This document shows positions 28,670 through 61,761 of a stretch of DNA of 64,000 bases, one piece after another; positions within the stretch are counted from its first letter, which is position 1, and every line of letters starts with the position of its first letter. This DNA is from Byssothecium circinans (taxonomy: Eukaryota; Ascomycota; Dothideomycetes; Pleosporales; Massarinaceae): assembly GCA_010015675.1 (NCBI GenBank), contig ML977025.1, positions 1 through 64,000 of the forward strand. The letters run 5' to 3'. The notes beneath the pieces are model-generated. The model was not told the DNA's origin and made no database searches. It saw nothing but the letters and a program-made list of their open reading frames with translations. A program made the position numbers and the translations under genes.

Positions 28670-30364
28670 ATGTCCACCGGCGAGCGCAAGCCATCATCAC
28701 TGAGCCGCTCCATAAGAGGCACGACGCCCCGCCTTGCCGACCTCGCATCCACCCCCGAGTCGCCTCGAACACCCCTCGGTCGACCCGCGTCGTCCATATA
28801 CGGCTCGCCCGGCGGCTATCGCATCGAAGAAGAATATATTGTATTAGAGATTGGATCGCGATTTGTGCGGGGAGGGCTCCCTGGCGACAGCGCCCCGCGA
28901 TGCACCCTCTCATTTGGCCCAGACGAGCAGCGACGAGTGGGTGACTATCGTCCATGGGATCCAGAGTATAGCAACCAGCGGCGGAAACGAAAGAGGGGCC
29001 AGGAATGGGGCCAAGACTATGAACTGTACCGGATGGACCTTAGTGAGATCGATCTGGGGCTGGTCGAAGACAAGTTCGAGCGGGCGATGCGGGAGGCTTT
29101 CAACAAGTACTTTGTGCTGGATACGAAACCCAGGCGGGTTATGCTCGCGATACCGCCCAAGATGCCGCATCCGTTGATTTCCACCATACTAGACGTCCTG
29201 TTCGGAAGCTTCCAGTCACCGAGCGTCACTCTGCTGTCTTCCCCAGTCCTCGCCACTGTAGCGGCTGGACTACGCTCGGCATTAGTGGTGGACATTGGGT
29301 GGGCCGAGGCGGTCATCACCGCTGTATGTGAATATCGAGAGGTGCACGAGCGGAGAAGTGTTCGAGCAAGCAAGCTTTTGAGCGAAGAGATGGCAAAGGT
29401 GCTGAATGCCGCGCTGGACGACGAAGCCGACGCCGGAGCAAAGCCTACGAAGGTGTCCTTTGAGGAAGCAGACGAGATTATAACGCGTGTCGGATGGTGC
29501 AAGCCAAAGCCGAAAGCGAATCGAAGAACAATGTATTTCGCTGCCCCTTCATCACCAATTCTCGAAGAGTTTGAAGATGCCGTGGAAACGCCTGAACCAA
29601 CAATTACCATCCCTTTCCCTAAACAAACACTACCGACTGACCTCGCGATTCCCTTTTCCTCACTAGCCGAGCCAGCCGAAAGCGCCTTGTTTGCCCCTGA
29701 CAAGGCACTGAATGAATTCGACGACCACGAACTACCCATTCATCACGTCATCTACCGCGCACTGCTCTCTCTACCCATGGACGTCCGCCGGGTGTGCATG
29801 TCCCGCATCATCATCACCGGCGGCGGCTCTGCGCTCCCAGGTCTCAAAGCCCGCATCCTTGCCGAGCTAGAGGCACTTGTCGCGCAGAAAGGCTTTGATC
29901 CCGTCCGCAGCTATGGCTCCGTCAGCGCACGGCACGAGCAGATGCTCGCTCAAAAACGAGAGAATTCCGATTTGCGAAGACAAGAAGGCGAAGACAAGGT
30001 ATCCGAGTCGCTCGATCCCGATCATCCACTTCCAGCAGGCTTGCAGAATCCCGAAGAAGATCCCATTGAAGCGAAGCTCTCTCACTTATCACTGAAGAAC
30101 TTTCCACCTGTTTCTTTAGTTGGTGGTGTGATTCGCGGCATAGATACTCTGGGCGCATGGGCGGGCGCGAGTCTCGTGGCGCAGCAGCGCATCAAGGGCA
30201 TCGTAGAGATTGAGAAGGAGAAGTACCTGCAGCATGGTCTACAGGGAGCTACTAGAGAGAAGGATGTATCCGTCGTACCTCAGCGGCAGAGTATCATCGG
30301 TCCCGGTATAGTTAGGGGCGGAGGTGGGGAGCGCGCGAGCTGGACGCTGGGAGTGTGGGCGTGA
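28670..30364 (+). CDS. actin-related protein, Arp10/Arp11-like (dynactin)
   Basis: Single exon, 564 residues. After a Ser/Pro/Arg-rich N-terminus, an actin-fold domain starts at about 55 with EEYIVLEIGSRFVRGGLPGD, an actin phosphate-1-like hairpin. It continues with VVDIGWAEAVITAV (phosphate-2 position) and RIIITGGGSALPGLKARI (adenosine motif). The key actin Gly/Thr pattern of phosphate-1 is altered, so ATP binding may be weak. This size and degeneracy fit fungal Arp10/Arp11, the pointed-end subunit of the dynactin complex (Neurospora ropy-7 class). A nuclear Arp is less likely because INO80/SWR-type signatures are missing. The middle insert (about 255-330) is family-variable. Confidence 0.7.
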   Translation: MSTGERKPSSLSRSIRGTTPRLADLASTPESPRTPLGRPASSIYGSPGGYRIEEEYIVLEIGSRFVRGGLPGDSAPRCTLSFGPDEQRRVGDYRPWDPEYSNQRRKRKRGQEWGQDYELYRMDLSEIDLGLVEDKFERAMREAFNKYFVLDTKPRRVMLAIPPKMPHPLISTILDVLFGSFQSPSVTLLSSPVLATVAAGLRSALVVDIGWAEAVITAVCEYREVHERRSVRASKLLSEEMAKVLNAALDDEADAGAKPTKVSFEEADEIITRVGWCKPKPKANRRTMYFAAPSSPILEEFEDAVETPEPTITIPFPKQTLPTDLAIPFSSLAEPAESALFAPDKALNEFDDHELPIHHVIYRALLSLPMDVRRVCMSRIIITGGGSALPGLKARILAELEALVAQKGFDPVRSYGSVSARHEQMLAQKRENSDLRRQEGEDKVSESLDPDHPLPAGLQNPEEDPIEAKLSHLSLKNFPPVSLVGGVIRGIDTLGAWAGASLVAQQRIKGIVEIEKEKYLQHGLQGATREKDVSVVPQRQSIIGPGIVRGGGGERASWTLGVWA

Positions 30365-38398: not shown

Positions 38399-39397
38399 TC
38401 ACAGCCGTCCCGGCCAAAACCTCTCCCGATTCCCCTCCCTCCACCCCCCATCATGCGCTACCACAACCTCTACCTCAACCTCCACCACCTCCCCTCCCGC
38501 CCCCTCTTCCCTAACCGCCCCCTCCCTCATCAGCCTAGCAACCCCCCTGACCGTCTTCTCCGCCGTCCCCGTATCAGCATGCACGCTCCTCAACCCACCC
38601 CTCCCATCATCATACACAGCAATACCCCTCTCTCCCCTCAAGATCCTCACATCATGACAACAATCGCCACCGAGATAAACCCATTTCCGCGGCGCCGTGC
38701 GCGCTAGGAGATTAACGTGGCCGGGAAGGTGCCCTGGCGCATCGATGATGTATACAGAGCCGTCGGTGAAGAAGTCAATGGCTGCCGGGAACCCAGCTAG
38801 CGGTTTCCAAACATGATTTGTTTGCTTCGGAGATGCGGTGGAGGCGCTGGGTGATGTGGGGGGTAGTTCTCGAGTTCGGTCCAAGGGGAGTTCGTCTGCG
38901 TTGAATAGCTCGGCTGGGTATAAGGGTCCGCCGCCGTGGGCGAGGAGATGCAGAGTCCCGCTTCCGACCACGAACTCTGCGTTTGGAAAGTCGGAGGGCG
39001 TGCCTACGTGGTCCCAGTGTACATGGCTTAGGATCACGGTGTCGATTTGACGGGGTTCGAGGTTTCCTTTTCGGAGGGAGTCGGCGACGTCGGGAGAGAC
39101 GGTGGTGGGTTGGCGTTGCGCGATGTGGTGTTGTTGGGCGGTGCGGTAGCCTTTGAAGTCGCGCTTGAGGCCTAGGTCGAAGACGAGGTTTGTGGGTTTG
39201 GAGGATGGGTTTGGGGAGGGGTGTTGGATTAGGAAGGACAGGGAGGGGACTGTTGCGCGCTTTTCGGGGTCTGCGTCGGTGACAAAGAGCTTTTCCGGGA
39301 GAGTGAGGTGGCCGCCTTCGAGGGCGGAGATTGTCACGTAAGTTTGGTTGGCTTGTGGTGCGGGTAGAGTGACAATGGATGGGTCGGACGATGACAT
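38399..39397 (-). CDS. metallo-beta-lactamase-fold hydrolase A (lactonase-like)
   Basis: Single exon, 332 residues. The metal-binding motif HxHxDH is His125-Val-His127-Trp-Asp129-His130. Later ligands fit at His223 or His227 (DAPGHLPGHVN), Asp245 (YLGGDCCHD) and His315 near the end. The order, spacing and the GHxxGH element match the AttM/AHL-lactonase-like branch of the superfamily, which opens lactone or lactam rings. No signal peptide, so probably cytosolic. It is divergent from the alcohol dehydrogenase gene and is a paralogue of the enzyme at 46547 (same motif numbering). The substrate is unknown, and fungal relatives also include lactamases that detoxify plant benzoxazolinones. Confidence 0.85.
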   Translation of the reverse strand: MSSSDPSIVTLPAPQANQTYVTISALEGGHLTLPEKLFVTDADPEKRATVPSLSFLIQHPSPNPSSKPTNLVFDLGLKRDFKGYRTAQQHHIAQRQPTTVSPDVADSLRKGNLEPRQIDTVILSHVHWDHVGTPSDFPNAEFVVGSGTLHLLAHGGGPLYPAELFNADELPLDRTRELPPTSPSASTASPKQTNHVWKPLAGFPAAIDFFTDGSVYIIDAPGHLPGHVNLLARTAPRKWVYLGGDCCHDVRILRGERGIAVYDDGRGGLRSVHADTGTAEKTVRGVARLMREGAVREEGAGGEVVEVEVEVVVAHDGGWREGNRERFWPGRL

Positions 39398-39550
39398 GAT
39401 AGAGAAGTAATGGTACGTAGTCGATAAGAGTTCAATGTGGGCAGTGAGGAATGGCGTGAAAGTGGTTTAGACTGTGACATCTGAAACAAGATGCGATTGT
39501 TGATTGGAGACTCCTGTTGGGGAAGCATGGCGCATGGGAAAGTAAAGCCC

Positions 39551-39590
39551 CACCCCGAGCTCTATACCCCCTCTATACCCCGCTGCGGGG
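39551..39590. promoter_or_regulatory. CCCCG motifs and GCGGGG palindrome in a divergent promoter
   Basis: Between the lactonase A and dehydrogenase genes: CACCCCGAGC (39551-39560), two CTCTATACCCC copies (39560-39570, 39571-39581) and the palindrome CCCCGC-T-GCGGGG (39578-39590). GCGGGG fits the CreA/Mig1 consensus SYGGRG. The same CACCCCGAGC word recurs at 46292. Confidence 0.5.
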
Positions 39591-39721
39591 TTTGAGCTTT
39601 TGCCCGCAGCCTTGTGCCATATTCCCCGTAGTCGTGCGTATCCCTTTAGAGCTCATCCTGACAGAAAGAGCGCCAGTAAAGCAACATTCTCCTGACACGC
39701 CCAAGCGCACGATAACCCAAC

Positions 39722-40852
39722 ATGGCGTCCGCCCTGCCCAAAACTATGCGAGGCCAATTTCTCGAAGCTTTCAAATCGCCCTACACCCTCCGCACAGTGC
39801 CACTCCCGAAACTGACTACACCTCACGATCTACTCATCAAAGTCGATGCTGCGTCATACTGTCACACCGATTTTGTTCTCGCCGAAGGGCAGATGCCCGG
39901 CTTTCCCAAATCATTCCCACATATCGGCAGTCACGAGTTCGCCGGAACAGTTGTTTCGCATTTCGACTCGCCGAGTTCAAAAGCAAGTACATTGAAGCAA
40001 GGCGATCGAGTTGGCGTGCCAGGTCGAGCGTTCCATGCCTGCGGTGACTGTTTTGAGTGCCGTGGATCAAAGGATCCGATCAGTCAGGACGATGAGGGCT
40101 ACTCGATCAATTGTGTACATGCTGAGAACAACGGACTGAGTAAAGACGGTGGCTTCGCGGAGTATGCCGTGGTGGATGCGAGACAGTTAGCACCCATACC
40201 AGATGCTTTGACAGCTGTCGAGACAGCGCCGCTCATGTGCGCCGGCATAACCATATATGCAGCCCTCAAGCGATGCAGGCTGCAAGAAGGCGATCGTGTT
40301 GGCATTATGGGCGCCGGGGGAGGACTTGGGCATCTTGGGCTACAGTATGGAGTGTCAATGGGATACAAAGTGCTGGGTATTGATGCCGCCGATGGACCTT
40401 TGAAGCTGGCAAGCAGCTTGAACACAGGTGCTAGATTGGTCGATGCGAGGTCCGAAAAAGCGGCTGATATCGTCCAGCAACTGGGAGCTGAAGATGGGAA
40501 GAAGTACACTGGTGAAATGGGCTTGGACGCGGTGATCATACTGCCCGAAAGTCAAACGGCGTTTGACTACGGAATGACACTCTTGAAATCGCATGGCAAG
40601 TGTATTGTGGTCTCTTTCCCAGAAAAGGGTTTTTACATATCTGCACGAGACGTGGTCTTTCGCGACATATCGATCATCGGAAGCCTGGTCGGAAGCAACA
40701 GGATGTTGCGGGAGATGCTGGACTTCTCCGCCAAGCACAACATCCGAGCCATTGCAAAATCTTTCCCACTGTCTAGGCTGAACGATCTGGTGGAGGACTA
40801 CCACAAAGGCAGCGGTGGGAAGTTGGTAATCGATATGTCCCTATCAGAATAA
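39722..40852 (+). CDS. zinc-containing alcohol dehydrogenase (MDR family)
   Basis: Single exon, 376 residues. The GroES-like N-terminal domain has the catalytic zinc set Cys47, His71 and Glu72 (SYCHTD, GSHEFAG). The structural zinc lobe has Cys107, Cys110, Cys113 and, after an insertion, Cys131. The Rossmann motif GAGGGLGHLGLQ (about 197-208) binds NAD(P). This resembles fungal Adh1-type enzymes, but the wide Cys113-Cys131 gap is unusual. It would interconvert an alcohol and an aldehyde in the putative cluster pathway. Its 3' end converges with the regulator gene 50 bp away. Confidence 0.88.
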   Translation: MASALPKTMRGQFLEAFKSPYTLRTVPLPKLTTPHDLLIKVDAASYCHTDFVLAEGQMPGFPKSFPHIGSHEFAGTVVSHFDSPSSKASTLKQGDRVGVPGRAFHACGDCFECRGSKDPISQDDEGYSINCVHAENNGLSKDGGFAEYAVVDARQLAPIPDALTAVETAPLMCAGITIYAALKRCRLQEGDRVGIMGAGGGLGHLGLQYGVSMGYKVLGIDAADGPLKLASSLNTGARLVDARSEKAADIVQQLGAEDGKKYTGEMGLDAVIILPESQTAFDYGMTLLKSHGKCIVVSFPEKGFYISARDVVFRDISIIGSLVGSNRMLREMLDFSAKHNIRAIAKSFPLSRLNDLVEDYHKGSGGKLVIDMSLSE

Positions 40853-40901
40853 TACCGAGAAAGCCTGCATCCCGTGCTAGAACCCATGTATAGTAATGTC
40901 T

Positions 40902-43583
40902 TCAACCAGATTCCAGCATATCAGCATACAGATTCAAGGCGCTTCCGATGACGTCTACAATAGCCCAAGTCTGTGAGCCCTTGAAGATGGTTGCCCATAC
41001 GCGCATGACGCCTGCACTGAGGTGCTTTATATAATCTGGCGAGTCTGAAGACATATGTGCAGGTAAAGCAAACTCGGTCTCGTCGAGCATGCTTTTGACG
41101 ATGGCTGCTATCTTGCGTTCATCTTCCGTCACTGGTGGTTCGGGATTTGGCTCTGAAAGAGCCTCGAGCCACTTGCTCATTAGGTATGCACATTCGAGGG
41201 TGCAGAGCGAGTGTTGAATCGACCAAATAAAGGACTGCGTCTTGGCTACCAGTCTGTACCCGATCTTAACTGGGATGCTCAATGCGTGTGCACTGTGCAG
41301 TACGGCTCGGGTGATCTTGGGCGATCGCTTGATGGCAGGACCGGCGCGGAAAGCGTTGGCGATCAACAATGGGTCGCGTGTCTCCAAGGCTCGGCCAGAG
41401 GTATCTACGTAGAGACGGATATACGCCAAGCGAAGGAGGGCAGTCGAATTGAAGGCTACTGGGCCATTTGGGCACATGGGATCGAGTGATGACTCTGGAT
41501 TGTTCTTCCATCCTATTTGCCAATTTCTCAAGGCGTTTTCAAGTGAAGTGACGTCTTCTTGACTGAGATCCCGATGACCATCGAATCGACCTCGCGCAAC
41601 TTGTCGAACAAAGAATATGTGCTGGATGAGCGCATGAATCAGCGCATAATTTCCGGCGCTTGAATTCCATTCCGTGATATCCTTGCCTCTTTTCGTGAAC
41701 AGTTTCTGCAGAGCATCTTGAAAATGGATCTCCGGTATGCTCTTCTTTCTCAACTCCCGCCATGCGCATTCGGTCGTTGCTTTGAACTCTGCAGCGCTGC
41801 ATGGTAAAGTGAGCTTGACCTCAGATGTTAAAATGAAGGGAGGTATATTGTAGACGATGCAATGAAGATTCGAAAAGCCATAGACAATAAACTTGGTTCG
41901 TTTGATGGTCTCGCGTCTGATCCAATCTTGCCATGGTATTTCCTCCCGCAGCGGCTCATCTGAAAGGCCATCGTCTCGGATTAGAGTTGCCAGAATGCTT
42001 TGAATTGCAAGTGCTTCTCGCAGAATTTCCTTGTGTTTTGCCCATGTGCATAGCGCCATGAGCAAAAGTAGAGCCTGCGCCGTCTGCATTAAGTCTTCGT
42101 CTGCAGGGAAGAATTCTGCGCCAGAGGGAAGGCCCAGAGGACCGACGGTGGATGAGGTGCGTGCTGGGCTTCTAGTGGTCACAGATGTGCCGTCAGCTTC
42201 GTGCGAAGAGGACCGAGCAGACTCTGCGCGGCGATGGACTTCTACAAGTCGAGCATCCCTTCGCCGTATCCGGCGTGTTGCTATTGCACGACTCGCGTTG
42301 AAGAGTTCTACGCCCTTTTCACCTTCAAACGTGTACTGGGCCCCTATAGCAGCGATGGCCAGTATGAGCTCGATGGAGCAGGTGTCGACGGACATGGACG
42401 GAATGTGGAGGAACGGCATGTGCTCATGGAACCCATTGATATATGCTGCAGTGTATCTGCACAGTGCCAAGCGAGTGGGGAGACGGAAGTCGCTTGGGAT
42501 AGCGGAGGCAAATTCTTCAAGCTTATCCGCGATCTTTTGGCGTCCCTCGATTGAAATGTCAGAGAATGAAGTCCGAGGACGCTCGTGCTGCGTGATATCA
42601 TCTGGTTGTAAAGATGGCAGTCTTGAACCAAATCGTGAGAATGAATGGCTTTCGTCCATATTTGTCTGGAATTGACCGAGCACTGATGGCGCAGTTGACG
42701 CTGGTGGAGGCAAGAAGTCGTGCCCATAGGTGAAGGACTCGGGTGAAAAGAACGGCATTGGCTGTTCAGTATTGATCACGCTTGCAAAGTGGTACGAGCT
42801 GAGAGGTTCGTGGTCAAGGAAGGCGGACAAATTATCTAGGGATTCGCCGACGCCGGCTCCGTGCAGTTGGGAGGTTGGTGGATGCATAACAGGTCGCTCA
42901 ACGGTTCTTGCTATGTTCTCCTCATGTAGAGGCAGCGAATTGGACATGTCTTGATGGGGAGTCGCGCCATTACCCATGCCCTGCATTGCTTGATACTCAG
43001 CAGCCATTGAGAGGGCCGCGAGGGAGTACTCGTCAGTCTGCGCCATTGACATTGAGACCATGGAAGGGGGATGATGGTGGTGAGGCGGGTGCATGTCCTT
43101 GGGGCCAGTGGCCGAGGGGGTCATCATGCTCGGTATCTCAGGAACTGGGCGGCCGGCATCATAGCTGTGGCGCATACGCTTCTGCGGTCTTCCATCGGGA
43201 GGGGTGTAGCTGTTGCTCGGTGGCTGCAGGTCATGATGGATTTGGTGATTTTGGTGGTTCTGATGATTCTGTGTCTTTTGGTGTTCTTTCTGATGCGTCA
43301 ACCTCTCGTGCCTCACCAGCAGGTCGCTAGTTGCGAATCAGCACGTGTTGGACGCGCCTCCCATCCCGACATACCTGCGAGTGAATGAGTAGTTGCACTC
43401 TGAACACGAAAAAGGCTTTACGCCCGAGTGGATTCTATCGTGACGCTGCAAGTGTTCTAGCCTTGCAAATTTCCTGTTGCAATTCTTGCATTCAAAACGT
43501 TTTTTTTCCTTTTCTTTTTCTTTCTCTTTCCCCTTCTCCTTCCCCGCGTTGGCGTTCGGCTCGGTAACCGGCTCCGCGTCCAT
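40902..43583 (-). CDS. C2H2 / fungal_trans transcription factor, likely cluster regulator
   Basis: Two exons, 43583-43375 and 43326-40902, are joined inside the second finger by a 48-nt intron, giving 877 residues. A Lys/Glu run precedes two fingers: Cys32/Cys35/His48/His52 (RLEHLQRH helix) and Cys60/Cys63/His76/His81 (RSDLLVRH helix). The helix residues match the Mig1/CreA pattern for G-rich GCGGGG-type sites. A Gln/His/Asn/Pro-rich linker leads to a fungal-specific transcription factor domain (about 290-520, with RLPTRLALCRYTAAYINGF and a conserved-type WIRRET/FVYG segment). It is nuclear and sits in the middle of the catabolic cluster, so it is a good candidate for its pathway regulator. 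Confidence 0.88.
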
Positions 43584-44003
43584 GACACATATGACAGCAG
43601 CGCTTACTCGCGTAGAGAGTGGCGATGCGCAGTTAGGCCATTATTGTCGGCCGTTTGGAATCATGTTTGGAGATGGTGAGAGAAAGTGTGGAGAGCGGAG
43701 GAATGAATGTGGGGATGGCTAGGGCGGACCGAAAGGGAAGAAGGGGCCCACGAACGGCCTTGGCGACGTAGATCGCGTATTTACGTCATCACCGGATCCT
43801 ATATGTGTTTCTATAACATCACAGACGGGATTTGGAATGCGAATTGTGCGCTGCGTGGACTTCGCGATAGATTGCGTGTGGTGTTGAGCTGTGTGCATGT
43901 GGGGCGCTCAGCTTCCCCGGATTCCAGGTCTCTCGCCTGCGCATTTCATCTATCGTGCGTCCAACACCATGCCCGTCTACCACAGCCCCGATCTACACCC
44001 GAC
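43584..44003. other. promoter region of the regulator
   Basis: No gene seen. Short + frames here are shadows of the antisense decarboxylase gene or have no content. Confidence 0.45.
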
Positions 44004-44516
44004 CTACGCCCGCTCGCTCTTGTTCCCCAGCTCGCGCGGCATCTCGCCCTTCTCTGCCATGTGGTTGAGCACCTTCTCGGCTGTCTTCATTGCGTCGACG
44101 CCTGCAGGTACACCGCAGTATGTGGTGGCGTGGATGATTGCCTCCCGGATTTCCAGCTCACTTAGGCCATTGTTCCGGGCTCCACGAATGTGAACTGCCA
44201 ATTCTGGTGCGCGGTTGAGGGCCATGAGCATGCCGATGTTGAGCAGGGAACGCTGCTGCTTTGAGAGTCCTGGCCGTGTCCTACCAACATCAGCCTAGCA
44301 TCTAAAGCCTTGTTCCAGGTAGTAGAGAGGCCAGACTTACCACGCGTATCCCCAGCAGAACTCTGTGACGAGCTCCTGGCCGGCGCGACTGAAGTCGGAT
44401 GAACCGTTGGCGAGCGCCTTGTCGACATACTCGCTCCCAACGACGCTCCTGCGCATCTTCAAGCCCTCCTCGAAGAGCTGCTTGTGCAGGTCATCGTACT
44501 TTGGATCCGAAGACAT
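44004..44516 (-). CDS. gamma-carboxymuconolactone decarboxylase-like protein A
   Basis: Two exons (44516-44341, 44280-44004; 60-nt intron) give 150 residues. The single CMD domain has the PcaC-type run [21 protein letters not shown] and [21 protein letters not shown](V)PAG. PcaC decarboxylates 4-carboxymuconolactone in the protocatechuate branch of the beta-ketoadipate pathway. The match to the PcaC core is good, but fungi mostly use the carboxy-cis,cis-muconate route, so the real substrate may differ. It lies next to a dehydrogenase and the regulator. Confidence 0.85.
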
Positions 44517-45089
44517 GGCGGCTGATTGGTGGGGAATTCGATGGGTGCCGTATATCAAGAGTTGGCTAAGTGAAGTATAGATGGAGGAGATGATTCCAGG
44601 AATCATTCAGATGAAGCCGGCAATGTGAAGGCATTGCCGTCATCTGTACCCCTCCATGTGGGCGCCGGCCTCGCTGTACTCAGTGTGCCGTTGGAGTTGC
44701 GGAGCTTCCCCAAGGATCCACTTCACCCCGCTTTCCTAATTGAGTATAGTCGAGTTGGAGGTTTGGCCTTCACAAGATGGCTATAGCACCTGAGTGCAAT
44801 CCAAACGATGTCACTTTGCGATGAGTTGAAGAAGATAGATTTAATAACCCGATTGATTGTGAATTCTGTGATCTGGACATAAGACTAAGCACCAGTACAG
44901 ACCGTCGGTTGCGGCGCAGTTCTTTCCTCTGATCTAACGTGCAATGGCCTTCATCGTCGAACCCGCGGATGCGTCTTCTTCACCTCTTCCTGATTACTAT
45001 ACTGTCAAACACTTCGTTGGTCACCTGAGGCACACGGCCAATATTCATCCAAGGTTTGATTTACAGGCCACCGATGTAGCTTCAATAAT
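44517..45089. other. upstream region of decarboxylase A
   Basis: No gene seen. CACCCCG at 44724-44730 and TACCCC at 44647-44652 repeat motifs found in the other cluster promoters. Confidence 0.45.
44724..44730 (+). promoter_or_regulatory. CACCCCG motif upstream of decarboxylase A
   Basis: A third copy of the CACCCCG core shared with promoters at 39551 and 46292, about 210 bp upstream of the decarboxylase A start. Confidence 0.35.
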
Positions 45090-46116
45090 CTACCCCTCCT
45101 TATTCAAGCCATCCATCCAATCTTCATTACCGCCTAGGTATCTGTATACAACTCTTGAATCCAGGTCCCGACACCGGGGGTCTTTGCTTGCAGCATCGTA
45201 CGTTGCCAGACCCACCTCTCCCAAGACATTCTGCGAGCCGACACGCTTTGCCATGTCCACAGCTAGCCCGAAGTCCTTCTTCATCAACTGTACCTTGAAG
45301 CCCTGCTTGTACCCTGCTGTTGATGGAGCTTCAGAATATACATGCGGCACTGGGCAGAAGCGATCTGCTATCGTATTCTGTGCTGTCCCTGCGGCATATA
45401 CTTTCGCCAATGTCCGCGGGTCCAAACCAGATCGCATTCCCATATCAAATGCCTCTGAGCATGCGATCGCGATGATACCCGACAGGTAGTTGTTCGATAG
45501 CTTCGCCGCAAGACCGAGCGAAGGACCACCGCAGGCGATGATCTGCTTTCCCATCATGCTCGCCAGATGCGTCAATGTCTTCAAATTCGGATCGGATTCT
45601 GAGCAGCCCAAAAAGAAAGCTATTGTGCCCTTGATCGCGCCCACTACGCCTCCACTGACTGGTGAGTCATAAAAGGATGCCGATGGGAAATTCTGCTGGA
45701 TGTGGTCTTTCACCGCCAGACTCGTTGCCGTATCTATCGTAGAGCAGTCGATGAGCAGTTTGTTCGATATGTCGGTGCTGCAGATGCCGCTTTCGGGATC
45801 AAGGAAGACCGAACGCACATGCGATCCTTCAGGGACCATTGTGATCACTGTTTCCTGTCGTCTCTCAGCTTTCTCTGTCATCTCGTATCTCGTAGTTACT
45901 CACCACTTGCCCGGCAACATCTCTGGCACTCTTTCCTTTGAAAACTCTATTTGGAAACTGTGTGCACATTTCATCTATCGCCTGCTCCACTACATCGAAA
46001 ACGAATATCCGCGACTCCGGTGACAGCTTGTTTGCTAGATGGACCAACATTGGCTTTCCCATGGCCCCAAGGCCAATGAACCCTAAGGTTTTGAACTGAG
46101 GCGACTCGTTCATCAC
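45090..46116 (-). CDS. NAD-binding beta-hydroxyacid dehydrogenase A
   Basis: Two exons (46116-45904, 45854-45090; 49-nt intron) give 325 residues; a second ATG follows at once, so the protein may start one residue later. The Rossmann motif GFIGLGAMGKPM is at residue 12. DSPVSGG (134-140) is the substrate-binding motif of 3-hydroxyisobutyrate/6-phosphogluconate-type dehydrogenases, and Lys189 in GLAAKLSNNYL is the catalytic lysine. The family oxidises short beta-hydroxyacids (3-hydroxyisobutyrate, tartronate semialdehyde and similar). It is divergent from lactonase B and is a paralogue of 49081. Confidence 0.88.
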
Positions 46117-46546
46117 GACGTGGAGGCTTGCGATGGGAATTATTTCGAAACGACTTTACACAATGAGATGTTATATCTTGTATCGTCGCCTTTCCAGAAG
46201 ATCCAGGGGTGCCAGATTCTTCGAAGATTCCCCAAGCTATCGCGCCCCACTACCTATTAGCGACCAGGACGGAGAGGGGTAATACTGGCAACACCCCGAG
46301 CCTCATCCGCTCTCTACCCCGAACAAGCGCGTTCAGGTCCGTGCTACCCACAGTACCTTCGATCAACTCCGGAAATTGAAGGATCAGTCAGCCTCGAGGG
46401 AAATCAGCAGCCTCCACAATGTTTATCGGAACGGCCTTATCGACCTCTCAACATCCGAGTCCATCCTTGCATCGTGTCTGACTAAAACCTAAACACGTCT
46501 CACGCGCAGTGTGTGACACTTTACCTCAAGTCTATCGAAAGTCCTC
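46117..46546. other. divergent promoter of dehydrogenase A and lactonase B
   Basis: No gene. Contains the shared CCCCG motifs listed separately. Confidence 0.5.
46292..46321. promoter_or_regulatory. CCCCG motifs in a divergent promoter
   Basis: CACCCCGAGC (46292-46301) and CTCTACCCCG (46312-46321), in the same order and almost the same wording as in the promoter at 39551-39582. Confidence 0.5.
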
Positions 46547-47588
46547 ATGTCTTCGTCTGTGTATACCAGACCTCCCAGACCTCCATCTCCATCTCTCAAG
46601 AGAGCAACTATCACTGTCCATGCTCTTTCAGCTGGTCATTTCACGCTCCCTGAGTACCAGTTCGTACACCCAGTTTCGTACGACGCACGAAAGACCGTAC
46701 CATCGCTTGCCTTCTTGATACAACACCACGACACACAGAATGGCACAACGACGCGGATAGTGTTCGACCTCGGCCTAAGAAGAGATATTACACGCTATGC
46801 GGCTCCAATCCAAAAGCACGTGGGGACACGGCAGCCTATGACAACGGATCCTGACGTAGTCAAGAGCCTAGCAAGAGGAGGCCTGACACCTGACGATATT
46901 GACTACGTTCTATACTCGCATGTAAGATGGCCACATATTGCCAATTTGGCGTTCTCTAATTCTATTGAAGGTGCATTGGGATCATATAGGCGAGCCTCGC
47001 GACTTCCCTTCTTCCATCTTCGTCGTCGGTAACGGAGCTCTTGGGTTACTTAACGGTACATCTGCTACCTCTCATGGCGGCCACTCATTCTTTGAGCATG
47101 ATCTTTTACCCGAGGGACGAACTGTCGAGCTTTCAGATCCTTCATCTTCAAATCAGCGACCCTCCAGCAGCCAACCAACCGGGAAGTTAGACTTTGACCA
47201 GCCATGGAAGGCTTTTCGAAACCTTCCCCAGACGCTGGATGTCTTCAACGACGGTTCACTTCTAATAGTGAATGCGCCTGGCCATCTAGCTGGTCACGTG
47301 AATATCCTAGCCCAAGTTTCTGAATCACACCAAGTCTACCTGGGGGGCGATTCATGCCACGACCGAAGATTGCTGACTGGGGAGAAGGAGATCGGTGAAT
47401 GGAACGACACTTCCGGGCATGTTTGCTGCATCCATGCGAATCGGAAGGAGGCCGAGGCGACAATAGACAGGATACGGCAGCTGGAAAAGGACGGGGTGGA
47501 AATGATCTTTGCGCATGATGTCGAATGGGAGAATCGACCTGCGAATAAAGCACGTTTCTTTGGAGCGGAGAGAAGCAGCAGTCTATGA
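46547..47588 (+). CDS. metallo-beta-lactamase-fold hydrolase B (lactonase-like)
   Basis: Two exons (46547-46921, 46971-47588) give 330 residues. The intron splits the metal motif SH|VHWDH after His125, with His127, Asp129 and His130 on the other side. GHLAGHVN, YLGGDSCHD and a late FAHDVEWEN supply the remaining ligands. The N-terminal 30 residues share ISALEGGH/VHALSAGH and LIQH with paralogue A, and the motif numbering is identical. Probably the same ring-opening chemistry as A, on an unknown lactone or lactam. The family also includes AHL lactonases. Confidence 0.85.
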
Positions 47589-48090
47589 ATTATTTGCGTT
47601 GCTCGTGTACATTTTACAGCACCAAACACATTCACCAATTCGTACTTTGCCTTCTTTCCCTCTTAGTCGGGTCATAACTCAAACCTAATCAGCTCACTCG
47701 CATACTCAGCACCTGCCCATTTCCTCGCACATTTCCTCGCGATCCTCAAAATTCCAAAACGCCGCGGTGTCCGCACTACTCCACGCCATCGTTGGAGAAT
47801 GTGGGGCATGTGTTCCGCGAACCGGGCATCGTCATCTTTCTCCAACACCACACCACATCAGCGTTTTCCTCTCCCGAACAACCATCAGGACGTTCGGAAC
47901 CACCGCCCAGCCTGCGCAATACCATCCACAACAGCCACAGCTTCCGCACGGCCCTCCCCATCACCTGTGTCCGCATCCGCCGTTGCAATATCCCCTTGCG
48001 CTGTCATTCGCTGGCGCTAGGCTTGATCGGGTCAGCTTCCATTTGTGCCCCTCAGCACCTACTTTACTTCTCTTGGAGAGGGTGACTATA
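47589..48090. other. upstream region of decarboxylase B
   Basis: The frame of the next gene is open upstream of 48091, but the added sequence is Pro/His-rich without family similarity, so it is treated as leader. Confidence 0.4.
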
Positions 48091-48984
48091 ATGGCTTCTT
48101 CTTCAGGATCCCCATTCATACGCCCTCCAGCTTATTCGATTCTTTCTACGCCACCCGATATGTCGCTCACGCCGCAACAGCAATCGCTCAAGGAGCGTTT
48201 TGATGCTCAGCTCGGCCCCGATGCATTTGATGAATCATGGTCGCGACTGTTGAAGCATAGTCCGGAGATGTTCTCTGCGAGTCTACGGTTGACGAGTGTG
48301 CCGAAGCGAAAAGGCCATCTATCTCCCAAGATCCAGAGTCTTGTATCCCTGTCTGTTGCGAGTGCGAGCACGCATCTGCATGTACCTAATATCCAACGAT
48401 ACACGAAGCAAGCTCTGGCGAACGGAGCAAGTAAACAGGAAATCGTGGAAGTTCTGTGTCTGACGTCGACACTTGGGATCCATGCTTGTAACATTGGGGT
48501 ACCGATTCTGTTCGAGGTGTTGAGAGAGGAAGGGAAGGAGTTGCCGAAAGGCATGGATGGGATGAGTAAGGAGCAGTGGGAATTGAGGGAAGATTTCGAG
48601 AAGAAGAGAGGGTACTGGCATGCGTTTTGGGAAGACTTTCTCAGGCTTAGTCCCGAGTTCTTTGGGGCGTATGTGGAGTTTTCGAGTGTGCCGTGGACGA
48701 ATGAGGGCGGTAATGGGGTGCTGGAGCCAAAGGTATGTTCACCCATTTGATGCTGTAAAAAGAGTCTAATAGCCCGACAGGTCAAGGAACTTATCTACTG
48801 CGCCTTTGACACGGCAGCTACACACCTCTACACGCCAGGGCTCAAACTACACATGAACAATGTGTTGAAATACGGCGGGACTGCAGAGGAAATCATGGAG
48901 GTCATGGAGTTGGCGACACTGCTGAGTATCAGCACGATGGATGTCAGTCTCCCAATCCTAGAGAAGGAGCTAGCAAACCAGTAA
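48091..48984 (+). CDS. two-domain carboxymuconolactone-decarboxylase-like protein B
   Basis: Two exons (48091-48732, 48781-48984; 48-nt intron) give 281 residues. Two CMD/AhpD-like repeats are visible: residues about 45-140 (SPEMFSASLRLTSVP, ASTHLHVPNIQRYTKQALANG, then EIVEVL) and about 185-278 (SPEFFGAYVEFSSVP, then AATHLYTPGLKLHMNNVLKYG, EEIMEVM). The repeats share phrasing and spacing, so the protein is an internal duplication. The CxxC of peroxidase-type AhpD proteins is absent. It may act as a decarboxylase or isomerase. No signal peptide. Confidence 0.83.
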
Positions 48985-49080
48985 ACAGACACCATCAACG
49001 CATCACACAAACCTTCCTAATCACACCCATCCCATTCCAACGCCATACAAAACAAAAATCTCATTTTCTCCACCGCAAAC

Positions 49081-50121
49081 CTACTTCCGCTCACTCTCAT
49101 TCAACCACTTATAAACAACCCTAGCATCCTTCCCCTTATACCTCTCATCGCCCATTGCCTCCCCAAACGCCTCCAAAGTCGGCCTATCCAGCACCGTCCT
49201 CGCCCCCACCATTTCCGCCAACTGACTCCCCATCCCCAACACCTTCGCACACAACTCAATCCGAAAGCCACCCTCATACCCCCTCGAACTCGGCACATTC
49301 TCCATCACCCCAGGCACCGGATTCGCCTTCGACGTAACCCAGCACTGGCCCCCCGACACGTTAATAACATCTGTAAGCAACTTGACATCCAACCCCATCT
49401 TCGCGCCGATATTCAGCGCCTCGGACGCCGCGAGCGATGTTATCGCAGAGAGGTAATTATTAATCACTTTAAACGCCGTCCCGGCACCTACATCGCCGCA
49501 GAGGAAAATCGCATCCTGCTTGCCCATGTGCGAGAGGTATCTCTTCGCGGTCGGGAAAGCGGCTTTGTCGTTCGTGCCCACCATGAAGGTTAACGTGGCG
49601 TCTTGCGCGCCCATCGGACCCCCGGACACCGGCGCGTCGATGAAGGTCAAGTTCGCGGATACACTTGATGCGGCTGTCGCTTTTGCGACGTCGAGGATCG
49701 TGGCGGTTTCTATGGTTCCGCATTCCATGATGATTTTCTTATTCTCCTCTTTCTTCTCTTTTCCCTGCAGGGCTTTCTCGGCGCCCGCGATGATGCCGCT
49801 TGTGCGGTTGAGGTAGACGTCTTTCACGGCGCTGGCGCCGGGGAGCATAGTTATTACCATGTCGGCGCGCTGGATGGCTTCGAAGCCGTTGGGGATGACT
49901 TCAACGGGACCGGAAGAGGTGGTTTCGGATTGGAATTGCGAGAGCGCGGAGGCATCGACGTCACAGACTAGGAGGGTGTGGGTTTCCGGGAGGGTTTTGC
50001 GGAGGTTGAGGGCCATGGGGTAGCCCATTACTCCTAGGCCTGGTGTGTTTTAGACGTTGATAGGAGAGGAGGGGAGCAGGGGCGTACCGACGAAGGCTAC
50101 GGTTTTGTTTGGTGAGGTCAT
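49081..50121 (-). CDS. NAD-binding beta-hydroxyacid dehydrogenase B
   Basis: Two exons (50121-50088, 50039-49081; 48-nt intron) give 330 residues. The first exon is 11 codons (MTSPNKTVAFV) and the intron falls just before the Gly-rich loop GLGVMG (12-17). DAPVSGG (146-152) and catalytic Lys202 in AGTAFKVINNYL complete the family signature. It belongs to the same family as 45090 but with a different intron position, so if they are duplicates the event was not recent. Confidence 0.88.
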
Positions 50122-50913
50122 TTCGGCGCTGAGGTGTGACGTCGTAGGTGTTTGGAGGTATTAATGGTCTTAAGGCTAAATTTCGATGGAGGTAGTTATG
50201 TTATTCGGTTTAAGGGTTTCGTTGCGGTTAACATTTGATACAGTACGAACTATTCAAGGGGAGGGTAATAATAGCACCTCGCAAACTTGGCCGGATGAGA
50301 AGCTACAATGGTATAGCTCCTACCTACGCGGGCGAACAACTTCACGCGATAACCTGCCCCGCATACAACAATTCCGAAAACCACCACCACGTTTCGGAAA
50401 GCATTGGAGAAAAGCAATCTAAATCCCTTCATGGTGTTGCATGCATGATGCAACCCCTCACTCTCTCCGTTCTCGTTTCCCCATCGCTATCCCTGCACGG
50501 TCTCCCCACCATCTTCCCCACAATCTCCGCATTTGGGGTCCAGCTCATGACCTCACCGCGCAGCATCCTTCTCCCTTTTGTCTCAGCTCCCGGGTGATCT
50601 TTGCCGAGCTGAAGAAACGGAATACTGGTTTTCTCTCAAGGCGAATGGGACGCAGCCGGGATGTTTTTATGGAGAGGGATCGCAACGGTGAAGGCGATTA
50701 TTGGCGCGGGCGCTAGACCCCAGATTTGATGAACATTATTCGGCGCTCTTGTCTGGGGAAAAGAAACGCGGCGCTCCGCGGGCTTACTGAGGCATGGCTC
50801 TTGGCATATTGACCCTTGGACTGGGTTGTGATTCCATCTCACCTCCAAGGCAGAAGTGTTTGTCTTTCGTCGTCGTTGCTTCTTGTCGCGCTTCCTCGAA
50901 GAATTGTCGATCT
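50122..50913. other. divergent promoter of dehydrogenase B and the MFS permease
   Basis: No supported gene. Overlapping short frames here have no recognisable content. Confidence 0.45.
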
Positions 50914-52651
50914 ATGATGACGGACTCAGACCAAACTGGCAAAGAGGCCTTTTCCCTTGCGGACGAGAAAGAGCAACCAGTAACGCGAGAATACCTCCAC
51001 CAAGATGAATCACCAGACACCATCGAAGCGAGACGCAAAGAAGCGAAGCTTGTTAAGAAACTGGACTGCTTCGTTGCGCCGGTCATGATGTTGCTTATGC
51101 TGATATCGTATCTTGACCGTGGTAATATTGGCTTCGCTGCTACTCAAGTATTACTTCCTTTTTTCATCCCAGAAATCGACACAGCAAAACACAAGTTACT
51201 GACTAGTGAAGGGCATGACGACGGATATCTCACTGAAAGGATCCGAACTCAATGTAAGACCTCCACCGCCATCCTACTGCCGAACACGCTCATAGTAATG
51301 ATCAAAGACCGCAGTATCCGTCTTCTACATATTCTACATTCTCGCTGAATTCCCAACCTCCATCCTCGTCAAGCGCCTCCAATTCAACCGCGTCATCCCC
51401 TTCATCACCTTCTGCTGGGGTCTAGTATGTCTATGCACAGGTTTCATTCAATCGTTCGGCGGCCTCGTCACCACGCGCATCTTCCTCGGTTTCTTCGAGG
51501 GCTGCCTCTTCCCTGCGATGACGCTGTTCTTGTGCAATTGGTACACGCGGGAAGAGCTTGGTGTAAGAGTGGCTTATCTATTCATCGCTAGCGCGCTAAG
51601 TACATCTTTTGGCGGACTCATTGCACTGGGAGTGTTATACATGGACGGTGTTCGCGGCTGGCCAGGTTGGAGATGGTCAGTACCCAAACTCACATGCCAT
51701 GCATATCCCAACCCATCAGCTGACCACTTCATAGGCTCTACGTACTCGAAGGCATCATCACCATAATATGGGCCTTCATCTGCATCTTCGTGGTCCCCAA
51801 AGACTACGAAACCGCCTACTTCCTCAACGAAGACGACAAAAAGATCATGCGAGTCCGCGCCGAACGCTCCGAAGCCTATTCCGGCGGCAGTGGCCACTAC
51901 AGCAAAGCCGACATCAAAGAAGCCGCCAAAGACATCAAGAGCTGGCTCCACGGCTGCATCCAAATCTGCGTCGTCACGATCCTCTACGGCTTCGGAACTT
52001 TCCTTCCCATAATCATTAGATACGGCTTCAAGTACTCGACGCAACAGAGTCAGTACCTCGTCATTCCCGTTGGGTAAGTCATCCTGCTCTTAAAGTCATG
52101 TTACATGTTCGAGAAGACATCGCTGATAGACACCGGCTTCAAGTCTCTGGGGCGCTATCGTCTACGCCATTGGCGCCTACCTAAGCGACCGTTACCAAAC
52201 CCGTTTCCTCCCCATGATCCTCGCCGCCCCCTTCGGCATCCTCGGCTACGCCATCCTCCTCGCGCCCGTCCGCCCAGCTATCTGGTACTTCGCCACCTAC
52301 CTCATCGCCACGGCGTGTTTCATCTGCACCGGCTCCAACATCACCTGGTTATCCGTCAACTGCGCGCCCGACGGCAAGCGCGCGGCTTCGCTGGGGATCT
52401 TGCTCACGCTGACGAATATCGGCGGCGTGGTGTCGGGGCAGATCTATCAGAGTAGAGATGCGCCGCGGTTTGTGCTCGGGCACGCGTGGAGTTTGGGGTG
52501 TTTGGTTTTTGCGTGGGTGGGGTGGTGGGGGGTCAGGGGGATTTATGGGCGGAGGGAGAGGGGGAAGAGGGAGGTGGTTAGGGAGGGGTATGTTAAGGAT
52601 GAGGGGAGGATGTTTACGGATCGGGAGCCGGGGTTTAGGTACCAGACTTGA
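50914..52651 (+). CDS. MFS transporter, anion:cation symporter (allantoate permease-like)
   Basis: Five exons join to 496 residues: 50914-51147, 51212-51253, 51308-51675, 51735-52073 and 52144-52651. Residues 55-75 read CFVAPVMMLLMLISYLDRGNIG, the first helix and signature of the Dal5/allantoate permease family (ACS). LNTAVSVFYIFYILAEFPTS follows, then FFEGCLFPAMTLFL, and the second half carries the usual six helices (GLWGAIVYAIGAYLSDRYQTRF). These permeases import organic anions such as allantoate, nicotinate or carboxylates. This fits a cluster that catabolises an organic acid. The N-terminus and C-terminus are cytosolic and charged. Confidence 0.88.
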
Positions 52652-55362: not shown

Positions 55363-56645
55363 TCAGTGACTGCAGGTGGTATTAAACACTGCATTTGCAG
55401 CCGGCTTTACCTCTGTCACATGATCTAGCGCCTGCCCTACGAACACGACCTGTACTGCAGCAAATCTAAGGGTAAGTCAGCTTCGCGCCCTGGCAATTTA
55501 TTTTATGAAGCATGATAGTGACCTTGGAATACTTACGCTGCTGTAACTGCAAAGACGTCTGTCCTTTTTGCGTCGCTGAATACTGTTAAACAAATGCTTA
55601 ACAATGCGTTAAAAGCCGCAATAGTCGCCAGTCTTGCAGTTAAAGCCTTCAGCTTAATCAACACCACAATACTTATCACAGGCATCGCACTCGCAATGAG
55701 ACTGGTGACCCAGAACGTAAACCGGAAGATGCTCTCCGTACGCACAGCTAGTGCACCGAACCTCTCATCTTTCTTCATCCATCGGGCGAAGCCAAACTTC
55801 TGCAGAAATGTGATGACATGTGCGCCAGTAAATCGAGAAAATGAGTCGGCATCCTGACGCGGTCGAAGGCAGATAAGCTCTTTGCTCATCGTAGATGTGT
55901 CATTGAAAGTGCCCCATATTTCGCGGTCGGGTCCGAGGAGCCCTTTAGGAATCATGTGGTCCGAGACAAGAAACTTCTGGATATCCTGGATATCATAGTT
56001 GTCTGGTTTGCCCATTTGGATGATTTGCGCCTGTTGAATGATTGCCGTGTCTTCGCGTTGGTGGTCAGGAAAAGAACCTTTTTAGGACAACAAGTACAAG
56101 AGTAACTCACTGTATTCCTTCAAAACACCTCGAATCTGGCGGACAAGATCCAATTGTTTGGTATCCCCACTTCTGAGCACGCCGTCCTTCATTTGAGTCG
56201 ATGCCATCAACAACCAATGATCTCTAGCGAAGAATCTCTTGTCTCCGACAGTACTTTGGCTGTCTTCGTATTCAAGTCTGCGGAGCTTGTTCTCCAATTC
56301 GACGAGCTCAGACTGGAGATATAACAGATTCCGACAGTTCAGTGCACCAAAGCGGCGAAACATGGCGACTTCTGGCATGGCACCCATACGACCCGCAAGC
56401 TTGGGGTATCCTTGAACCAGGTCTTCGTAGGCGTGGTGTAACCCGGGTGTCTCAGAGGCGGCTGTTCCTGGCTGATCCAGTGGAGTAAGGTCAATTGTAG
56501 ACATCGCCGATGGCTCTGCAACTGGTGGAAGGGGATGGGAAGGCTTCGTGGCTGGATTCATATTCGAGGAAATTATTTCAAGACCTGTGTCTTCTTGAGT
56601 AGGAGCTGGTGGAGGTGCTCCTGCGGATGCTTGATCAGAGCTCAT
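55363..56645 (-). CDS. DUF6594-type membrane protein 1
   Basis: Three exons (56645-56111, 56050-55537, 55465-55363) give 383 residues. Landmarks of the fungal DUF6594 family are clear: YPKLAGRMGAMPEVAMFRRFGALNCRN followed by LLYLQSEL, then LKEYNTAIIQQAQII, the C-terminal hydrophobic helices (LIASAMPVISIVVLI, FNALLSICLTVF) and AKRTDVFAVTAAFAAVQVVFVG. The N-terminus is disordered. Two or three C-terminal helices suggest an integral membrane protein. Function is unknown, and members are common and variable in Pezizomycotina. It is tandem with the gene at 57449. Confidence 0.88.
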
Positions 56646-59427: not shown

Positions 59428-60738
59428 TCACGCCTCCAACTTCTGAACATGCACACTACACGCTTCCCCCTCGCGCCAAACTCCCCGAATATTCAGCGTC
59501 GCATCAATATCCTCTAACGGATTCCCCTCGACGAGCAGAAGATCCGCATTCAAGCCCTCAGCCAACCGACCACGATCCTCGAACCCAAACCTTCTCGCAA
59601 CGACGCTCGTAGCCGACCGAATCGCCTCTTCCGGCGTCATACCGACCTTGTGCACGAATAGATACAGCTCGTGATGCGCCGAGAGTCCAAACGCAGTACC
59701 CACCGCTGGGCCCGCAGCATCACTTCCACTGCACAACATCAGCGACCAAGTATGAGGTAAGGAAGTGAAGGGAACCTACAGCACGATATCAATCCCAGCC
59801 TCCCTCAACATACGCACGCTCTCATACGCATATTCCACTTTCGCGTTCTCCTTCGCAAACCCCATACAATTACACAGATTCTCGATCTCGTCCCCCTCAA
59901 TCAAACCCTGAACGCGCGGATCATGCGCGAAACGATGCTGCAGCTCTTTTCCCTCCGTCGTCAAGCTTCCGATGGCATTCAGTGTGGGATTCAACCACGC
60001 GTTGTTGCGTTTATACGCGTCCACGAGGTCCTGCGTGGGGGGCTGGTCGCACATCGTATGTGTGAGGCCGTTGACGCCTGCATCAAGCACTTCGAGAGTA
60101 TCATTTAGACTGAGCGCATGCGCGACTGTGAGAAATCCTCGCTTCTTCGCTTCTTCGACGATGATCTTTTGTAGCGAGACGGTTGGTTTGGAGAGCTGCA
60201 TGCCCATGCTGGCTCCAGATTCGTGCATCAGTTTGATGTAATCGGGCTGCATCTCTTTCTTGTTCCAGTCCAGGTACTCGATGACGTTCTCTCGGTTCGA
60301 CAACTTCGGCCACTTTGCGATTTCGGCGAGCGTCTCGGGACTCTTGTCGTGCGCGGTGATGACTGGAATCGGCCACCCGTTCTCGATGGTCGCGGCTTGT
60401 CCGGCGGTTTTGTAGGATGCCGTGTCGGGCTCTAGAGCTTGTTTCTTGAGCTTTTGCACGTTGGGGAGCTCGTTATGCATCTCGCAGACTGTAGTCACGC
60501 CGAAGCGGAGGGCTTGGATGAGTGCGATAGGATTGGCTCCGTCGGCGTGGATGTGGCAGTCAATTAAGCCGGGGACGAGGGTATGGCCGGGCTTGGAATA
60601 GGTTTTAAGGGATGTGTGAGGTGCGGATGATGTTGGGCCGATAGCTTTGATCTTACCATTTTCAACGTGGATGTAGGCTTCCTTAATTGTTTCTTCGCCA
60701 GTGAAGATGCGAACATCGCGGATAACAAAGGATGCCAT
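59428..60738 (-). CDS. metal-dependent amidohydrolase (imidazolonepropionase-like)
   Basis: Two exons (60738-59780, 59728-59428; 51-nt intron) give 419 residues. Ligands of a binuclear amidohydrolase are in place: His62 and His64 (LIDCHIHADG), Lys169 (PDYIKLMHESG, the carbamylated lysine), His207 (VAHAL), His227 (LTHTM) and Asp323 (GSDAAGP). The beta-sandwich start (IRDVRIFTGEE) and the closing NADLLLVEGNPLEDI are typical. Relatives hydrolyse cyclic amides, dipeptides or amide-linked toxins. There is no signal peptide. It sits 7 kb from the catabolic cluster, with DUF6594 genes in between, so a shared role is possible but not shown. Start chosen at MASFVIRD. Confidence 0.87.
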
Positions 60739-61761
60739 TGTTGTAAGTATTGTTGAATGAGAGGAAGGGAATACAAGGGTGGAGTTCGCGATATATTTTA
60801 TCGAGGCGCATCGTTTGTGTTCTGCGGAATTAAATAGATAATCAAACCCAAAATTGACCAACAAACGTCCCAATCAACCGGACGCTATCTCGGATTCACC
60901 GAGCAGGCCAGCCTCAGCCGCAAGGGCCTCCAGTAACACAACTATGGGCGCTGATGCAAACGAGTCCGAGGCTCGGATAGCGAAGGTGGAGAGCCGATTA
61001 CGAAAGCCTATCTTGGTACCACAGGTCGGTTAGATGAACTTCCGTCACGTGTAAATAATGGCTAATGTACGCACATATATACGTAGTTTCCTTTAAGGTA
61101 CGAATGTATTTATACTAAGCTAGGATAGCTTTAAGGCGTAATACCTAGTTAGCTGTCTATCTCTCTAGCTATCCTAAGATGTCTTCGCTTTGCAACGATA
61201 ATAGAGGCGTCTAGCGCACACGTGATTGAACTTCATCTGCCAACCCTATGGTAAAAAGCTCACAAACGCAAACCCTCTTCTTCAATGTTCCTGCCTTATA
61301 TACGCTAGGCTTTCCAAAGCATTTAAGCGTGGGGGTACTAGTGTGTTAGTAACACAACGATCGGAGAATCTCCAAAGCTGTGCGATGAGCTGGACGTTTA
61401 TTCAGCACGACTAGTATAACAGAGTTAATATTTAAGATAAGAAATAATTTGTAAATCTAAATACTATTGTAACTCTTGCGGTAATAATATCTAAGGAAAT
61501 TAAAGTAGCAACCACGTTCTTAAAACTTTACTAGAGTACGTACAACATCCAATCTTCACTTCAAAAGCTTATACTTAAGCCTCTATAATTGCCTAATATC
61601 CCTTCTCCGCACGAGCTCAAACTGGGGACCATAGCAAAAATCTTTCCTCGTTATCTAGTACTGTGAGCAAGATTGTATGCTTTAAGCGCACGCACTGCAT
61701 GCGAAGACTCTTTGACGTTGAATTAATTTGAATACCTTTTAAACGAATAAATCTCTATCGG
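60739..61761. other. intergenic, partly AT-rich
   Basis: AT-rich from about 61040 to 61760, with an imperfect inverted repeat around GGATAGC/GCTATCC near 61125-61175. No gene seen. Confidence 0.45.

Follow-up and report, generated by a model that had tools for sequence, protein, structure and literature searches.

A block of nine adjacent genes lies between positions 38399 and 52651 of the DNA analysed here, a 64,000-nucleotide stretch of the Byssothecium circinans genome (hereafter, the window). Comparison with related genomes confirms, at the level of sequence, that this block is a real, conserved and co-inherited fungal gene cluster. The gene order is MBL_A, ADH, TF, CMD_A, HAD_A, MBL_B, CMD_B, HAD_B and MFS. 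The encoded proteins are two metallo-beta-lactamase-fold (MBL) hydrolases, two carboxymuconolactone decarboxylase-type (CMD) proteins, two beta-hydroxyacid dehydrogenases (HAD), a zinc alcohol dehydrogenase (Zn-ADH), a transcription factor (TF) and a major facilitator superfamily (MFS) permease. We think it probable that these proteins are a conserved catabolic set for one small pathway, comprising lactone opening, hydroxyacid oxidation and decarboxylation. A preliminary description of the window had named nine adjacent genes of these classes, and all are borne out by nine gene models and by Pfam. The component enzymes are of known kinds. We found no description of their combination, or of the bacterial echo described below, in the open-licence literature.

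Conservation was measured as the spacing between locus-tag numbers in protein listings, compiled by hand and using positional tags only. The relatives came from listings of the best 120 of 421 matches to CMD_A, the best 120 of 1429 matches to MBL_A, and HAD matches. The matches listed provided 12 gene pairs in 10 relatives; tag spacing agreed exactly with that of the window for 10 of these pairs and differed by one for the other two. Exact spacings were MBL_A–HAD_A (4) and HAD_A–MBL_B (1) in Paraconiothyrium brasiliense, HAD_A–MBL_B (1) in Kalmusia and Neocucurbitaria VM-36, MBL_A–HAD_B (7) in Paraphaeosphaeria sporulosa, Plenodomus lingam and Neocucurbitaria cava, MBL_B–HAD_B (2) in P. minitans, HAD_A–HAD_B (3) in Parastagonospora nodorum and CMD_A–HAD_A (1) in Pyrenophora teres. 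The pairs off by one were MBL_A–HAD_A in Kalmusia and MBL_A–HAD_B in Plenodomus lindquistii. For VM-36 and P. nodorum, the tag series was assumed to count in tens. The search covered the MBL, CMD and HAD genes; for the other genes, the MBL_A–HAD_B spacing of 7 is the one measure, and it bears on those in between. Since neighbours remain together in relatives, their association goes beyond chance. The synteny that the preliminary description had proposed as a check is kept among the genes covered.

Further observations lie outside the count. JGI 'DRAFT' numbers were excluded because they are model numbers and non-positional. In Thermoascus crustaceus (Eurotiales), the CMD_A and HAD_A relatives have consecutive DRAFT numbers (4373 and 4374). 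Pairs in Bimuria, Decorospora and Zopfia have distant DRAFT numbers, yet each pair is on contigs of equal size. By the same measure of equal contig size, a 15-kb metagenome contig carries relatives of CMD_A, MBL_A and HAD_B, and a 24-kb one carries CMD_A and HAD_B (hand-picked rows). Single gene models of 574-580 aa contain both MBL_B and CMD_B in Paraphaeosphaeria, Paraphoma and Clohesyomyces (P0204, P0226 and P0235). These are probably annotation joins, and possibly true fusions; hence, MBL_B and CMD_B are adjacent in those species. Of the 120 of 1429 matches listed for MBL_A, relatives in Pleosporales and Helotiales are 67-78% identical to it; for CMD_A (120 of 421 listed), relatives are 78-93% identical.

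Table 1. Genes of the cluster, with positions in the window.
Gene	Position	Strand	Product and model	Pfam
MBL_A	38399..39397	-	MBL-fold lactonase-like hydrolase; 332 aa, intronless	PF00753
Zn-ADH	39722..40852	+	AdhP-like; 376 aa	PF08240+PF00107
TF	40902..43583	-	C2H2 + Fungal_trans regulator; 877 aa; exons 43583-43375, 43326-40902	PF00096, PF04082
CMD_A	44004..44516	-	Single-domain PcaC-type; 150 aa; exons 44516-44341, 44280-44004	PF02627
HAD_A	45090..46113	-	HIBADH-type beta-hydroxyacid dehydrogenase; 324 aa; exons 46113-45904, 45854-45090	PF03446+PF14833
MBL_B	46547..47588	+	Lactonase-like hydrolase; 330 aa; exons 46547-46921, 46971-47588	PF00753
CMD_B	48091..48984	+	Two-domain CMD protein; 281 aa; exons 48091-48732, 48781-48984	PF02627, two stretches
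HAD_B	49081..50121	-	HIBADH-type dehydrogenase; 330 aa; exons 50121-50088, 50039-49081	PF03446+PF14833
MFS permease	50917..52651	+	Organic-anion type by family; 495 aa, five exons	PF07690

All nine genes were modelled in an intron-aware manner with GT..AG introns (Table 1). The limits of the cluster are the ends of the MBL_A and MFS models. In the mechanical open reading frames, the initial exon or the start is missing for TF (start at 43583), HAD_A (46113) and HAD_B (50121). The MBL_B intron is at 46922-46970. Some assignments are at the level of family. The second TF finger was judged by eye, the PF13465/PF13894 match being below cut-off. Zn-ADH scores 156 bits with the AdhP model (cut-off 344), and its top solved relatives are alcohol dehydrogenases. 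The permease scores 191 bits with the D-galactonate transporter model TIGR00893 (cut-off 395). A shared promoter motif is unsupported: CCCCAC-type words occur in all six intergenic regions, and some 6-letter word did so in 21 of 100 shuffles. The 10-mer CACCCCGAGC is present at 39551-39560 (MBL_A/ADH) and 46292-46301 (HAD_A/MBL_B), both of which are divergent promoters. Upstream of the cluster are housekeeping genes for a Nop-domain snoRNP protein (26427-28172, - strand) and an actin-family protein (28670-30364, + strand). Just past the cluster, GC content falls to 0.42 at 54-56 kb; next come a gene for a DUF6594 protein (55533-56645) and part of an amidohydrolase gene (59776-60873).

The position of the two MBL proteins in a lactone pathway is suggested by their metal-binding residues. 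The HxHxDH motif and the metal-ligand set H125, H127, D129, H130, H230, D252 and H307 (MBL_B numbering) are the same in all 10 proteins aligned. We take these residues to be the dinuclear metal ligands by analogy with AiiA positions; at what we presume to be the site of AiiA Tyr194, the cluster MBLs have a conserved His. The structure predicted for MBL_B (pLDDT 77) has a lactonase-type fold, as judged from the model: its first 32 Foldseek matches are lactonases, with acyl-homoserine lactone (AHL) lactonase and 4-pyridoxolactonase on top. Both proteins fall below the models of individual lactonases, with 52 (MBL_A) and 59 bits for AttM (cut-off 390) and 25 and 40 bits for AiiA (cut-off 375). 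MBL_A and MBL_B are 42% identical and form separate groups. Among the matches listed, each group has members in several Pleosporales and that of MBL_A extends to Helotiales (group labels, for MBLs and HADs alike, were assigned by identity to the first query). Judged by these sequences, the split between the two is older than the Pleosporales. No bacterial or viral MBL relative was confirmed by pattern scan among 21 and 5 matched stretches.

A similar gene set is found in bacteria. When bacterial and archaeal genomes were scanned with CMD_B, nine loci emerged; six of these, in Herbiconiux (L037-L040) and two metagenome-assembled genomes (L043 and L045), share an operon. On one strand, its order is NmrA, MBL, HAD1, CMD_A-like, HAD2, CMD_B-like, a vanillyl-alcohol oxidase (VAO)-type flavoprotein, a second flavoprotein, one or two short-chain dehydrogenases/reductases (SDR) and ADH (truncated in L045, where the contig stops). 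The CMD_A-like proteins of the operon are 44-47% identical to fungal CMD_A, and the CMD_B-like proteins 42-50% identical to fungal CMD_B. The VAO-type protein has vanillyl-alcohol/eugenol and 4-allylsyringol oxidases as its nearest solved relatives. CMD_B is rare: in a sample of 396 genomes from the order, four had it, and the source genome is among those four.

The neighbourhood of CMD_A was compared with a control. We considered 18 places in seven genomes, using a 4-kb radius, and set the best CMD_A relative against eleven lower-ranked PcaC-like copies. Beside the best relatives there was a HAD gene in 6 of 7 cases and an MBL gene in 5 of 7. For the lower-ranked places the figures were 1 of 11 and 0 of 11, with some stretches reaching contig ends. 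In two alphaproteobacterial loci (L053 in G006, 7644-9789; L054 in G003, 8476-9726), a HAD gene directly follows the CMD_A relative, and one of the two has a divergent MBL. By gene content, then, the CMD_A-HAD pairing extends beyond the Microbacteriaceae operon.

The proposed pathway is as follows; it is inferred throughout, from the individual reactions and their sequence to the substrate and the regulatory control. The MFS permease would import an organic anion. MBL_A and MBL_B, as dizinc enzymes, would open lactone rings, and the HADs and Zn-ADH would oxidise hydroxyls freed by ring opening. CMD_A and CMD_B may then act on the keto-acids so formed, by decarboxylation or isomerisation. Expression of the gene set would be switched on by the C2H2 regulator. 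The paired HADs and CMDs would serve different steps of one pathway and not be copies from a block duplication. A logical route of this kind had been put forward in the preliminary description. It holds up in that the classes of enzyme are suited to opening lactones, oxidising hydroxyacids and decarboxylation, the MBL ligands are kept and the modelled MBL_B fold is that of a lactonase.

A bolder proposal, which we offer tentatively, is that one undescribed pathway is encoded both by the cluster and by the Microbacteriaceae operon, with a lactonase, two HADs and two kinds of CMD acting on a lignin-phenol or lignan lactone. The fungal version may have been built round bacterial-type CMDs, with native HIBADH (3-hydroxyisobutyrate dehydrogenase) copies replacing the bacterial HADs. 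Several observations weigh against this and against the single pathway. The operon HADs are about 25-33% identical to those of the fungus, the MBL, for example, 32% over 59 aa (a local match) and the ADH 29% over 213 aa. These are family-level values, so gene-by-gene orthology is not found beyond CMD_A (45%) and CMD_B (50%, to a Herbiconiux protein). As the CMDs alone match closely, the claim of a common pathway rests on composition and order. VAO is absent from the fungal cluster, and the VAO-like matches in the genome are on other contigs. Five loci, L041, L042 and L044 of the nine and L051 and L052 from a wider search, have CMD_B with neither CMD_A nor HAD nearby; a further CMD_B locus, L050, is a 3-kb contig and uninformative. 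In the neighbourhood control, 4 of the 7 main loci were found via the neighbouring CMD_B and are not independent; the remaining three have HAD in 2 of 3 cases and MBL in 1 of 3. Finally, in Paraphoma the HAD_A match sits on a different contig from the remaining members.

Some of the same loci bear on a reading in which two related pathways have merged, with MBL_A, CMD_A and HAD_A acting on one lactone and MBL_B, CMD_B and HAD_B on another. Consistent with this, the two lactonases belong to separate groups that each recur in several Pleosporales, CMD_A-HAD occurs without CMD_B nearby (L053 and L054), and CMD_B occurs apart from CMD_A (L041, L042, L044, L051 and L052). The CMD_B relatives in L041 and L042 (near 8000) have an alpha/beta hydrolase-like gene and a luciferase-like gene next to them, and that in L044 (near 8000) is beside an SDR and a Baeyer-Villiger-like monooxygenase gene, all by eye; these neighbours hint at lactones from cyclic ketones. 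Conversely, the operon unites both CMDs and both HADs with a single MBL, an arrangement more in keeping with a single pathway whose members have distinct roles, and both sets remain together in Pleosporales. We consider a merger rather unlikely.

Xenobiotic detoxification clusters typically combine MBL-fold hydrolases with an MFS transporter and a regulator. The Fusarium benzoxazolinone (FDB) clusters are one such case, in which an MBL lactamase occurs together with acyltransferase/amidase genes. The Byssothecium MBLs could similarly open a plant lactam or lactone, the rest of the cluster being accessory. However, none of the nine genes is an acyltransferase or amidase gene by Pfam, the structural neighbours of MBL_B are lactonases and the enzyme set is able to carry carbon onward. 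We regard detoxification as an improbable function for the cluster.

Elsewhere in the genome, a second MBL and HAD pair occurs on contig C66 (26954-44645; G000, L025, L026 and L034), flanking a carboxylesterase-like gene identified by eye. Next are genes for a CoA-transferase (118 bits, cut-off 128.5), an Fe-ADH, a thiolase and a PcaB-like cycloisomerase (449 bits, cut-off 595). Further on are a homogentisate-dioxygenase (HGD)-like gene (199 bits, a piece) and, by eye, a class III CoA-transferase-like gene. The locus is likely an aromatic-catabolism cluster. On the basis of neighbourhood, it links the MBL and HAD pair to aromatic catabolism in this genome; genome searches for CMD_A and CMD_B relatives found none at C66. 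A PcaB-like cycloisomerase is not known as the enzyme of the fungal protocatechuate branch.

Aspergillus niger provides a second aromatic link. According to PMC10406623, the A. niger PcaC orthologue is up 240-fold on protocatechuate, is dispensable for growth on protocatechuate, and the fungus makes 3-carboxymuconolactone. Here, the counterpart of the A. niger gene may be CMD_A or its copy on contig C51, both being candidates. Because of the VAO-type gene in the operon, the C66 locus and the induction of the A. niger orthologue by protocatechuate, we consider a lactone derived from the breakdown of aromatics or phenylpropanoids the most likely substrate of the cluster. The VAO-type protein also prompts a guess that the pathway is catabolism of pinoresinol, a lignan; the parts of PMC12607616 and PMC12997858 available for this route mention no carboxymuconolactone, hydroxyisobutyrate or lactamase.

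The same observations could place CMD_A in the protocatechuate branch, as a PcaC acting on 4-carboxymuconolactone. CMD_A matches the PcaC model TIGR02425 with 130.7 bits, the A. niger orthologue is induced by protocatechuate, and C66 has the PcaB-like cycloisomerase, with CoA-transferase and thiolase pieces, near the other MBL and HAD. Against this, the match is below the cut-off of 155.7, two HADs and CMD_B are left without a role and, according to PMC10406623, the A. niger gene is dispensable and 3-carboxymuconolactone is the product made. We regard a protocatechuate role as improbable.

The preliminary description had also stressed that each class is duplicated, had considered an old block duplication and had suggested paired trees as a check. 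The duplication stands as a count but not as a set of copies. CMD_A and CMD_B differ in architecture and give no significant alignment (best E 0.08). The nearest paralogue of CMD_A in its own genome is the C51 copy (49% over 81 aa), a search of the 48.4-Mb genome at E<=0.001 yielded no further copy of CMD_B, and the two CMDs have separate counterparts in the bacterial operon. HAD_A and HAD_B are 34% identical; a HIBADH-type gene on contig C84 is nearer to each (40% to HAD_A and 39% to HAD_B). In the matches listed, they form their own groups, that of HAD_A extending to Eurotiales and that of HAD_B to Cercophora. In the trees, three approximately unbiased (AU) tests for the HADs gave p 0.61-0.63, deciding nothing either way, and the branch uniting HAD_A with the C84 gene had a support of 15. 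MBL_A and MBL_B fell together with a support of 29, and theirs is the one pair that could be a simple duplication. Although three classes do occur twice and the MBLs pair up, duplication of an MBL-CMD-HAD unit is rejected for the CMDs, and for the HADs by pairwise identity, and we regard it as very improbable.

PcaC-like proteins are widespread in fungi without a settled role. If CMDs, lactonases and beta-hydroxyacid dehydrogenases do act together on a different lactone, this would provide a testable answer to the puzzle of an A. niger PcaC that is induced yet dispensable, as set out in PMC10406623. It would also add a route for plant-derived lactones common to fungi and bacteria.

CMD_A resembles PcaC over residues 12-133, below the equivalog cut-off, and adjoins HADs and MBLs with no pca operon. 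CMD_B was not matched by TIGR02425 at E<=0.001. Its likeness is to PDB 2q0t (E 5.6e-70, CMD_B residues 47-278), which is also a two-domain CMD and is itself named as a putative gamma-carboxymuconolactone decarboxylase subunit. Both HADs resemble HIBADH: HAD_A scores 213.5 and HAD_B 220.4 bits with TIGR01692 (cut-off 291.6), HAD_B matches structure 2i9p (E 3e-47), and the C84 gene is a further one of this type. The alignment retains GxGxMG, the D(A/S)PVSGG loop and KxxNN in both, motifs that we assume to have their usual meanings, the first being that of the Rossmann fold. The MBL ligand set is that of AHL lactonases (AiiA, AttM and AiiB) and 4-pyridoxolactonase, to which MBL_B is 16-22% identical by structural alignment; the model scores are far under the family cut-offs.

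At the level of loci, PMC8336404 describes A. niger mhdA-omeA (NRRL3_10111/10110), a methoxyhydroquinone dioxygenase/esterase pair in which an HGD-like gene adjoins a carboxylesterase. The C66 MBL and HAD lie near HGD-like and carboxylesterase-like genes, a likeness by family, with the esterase called by eye, and on a different contig from the nine-gene cluster. The Microbacteriaceae/Micrococcales operon is like the cluster in having MBL, two HADs, relatives of both CMD_A and CMD_B, and Zn-ADH within about 9 kb. It is unlike the cluster in its single MBL and in its additional NmrA, VAO- and BagG/FevA2-type flavoproteins and SDRs.

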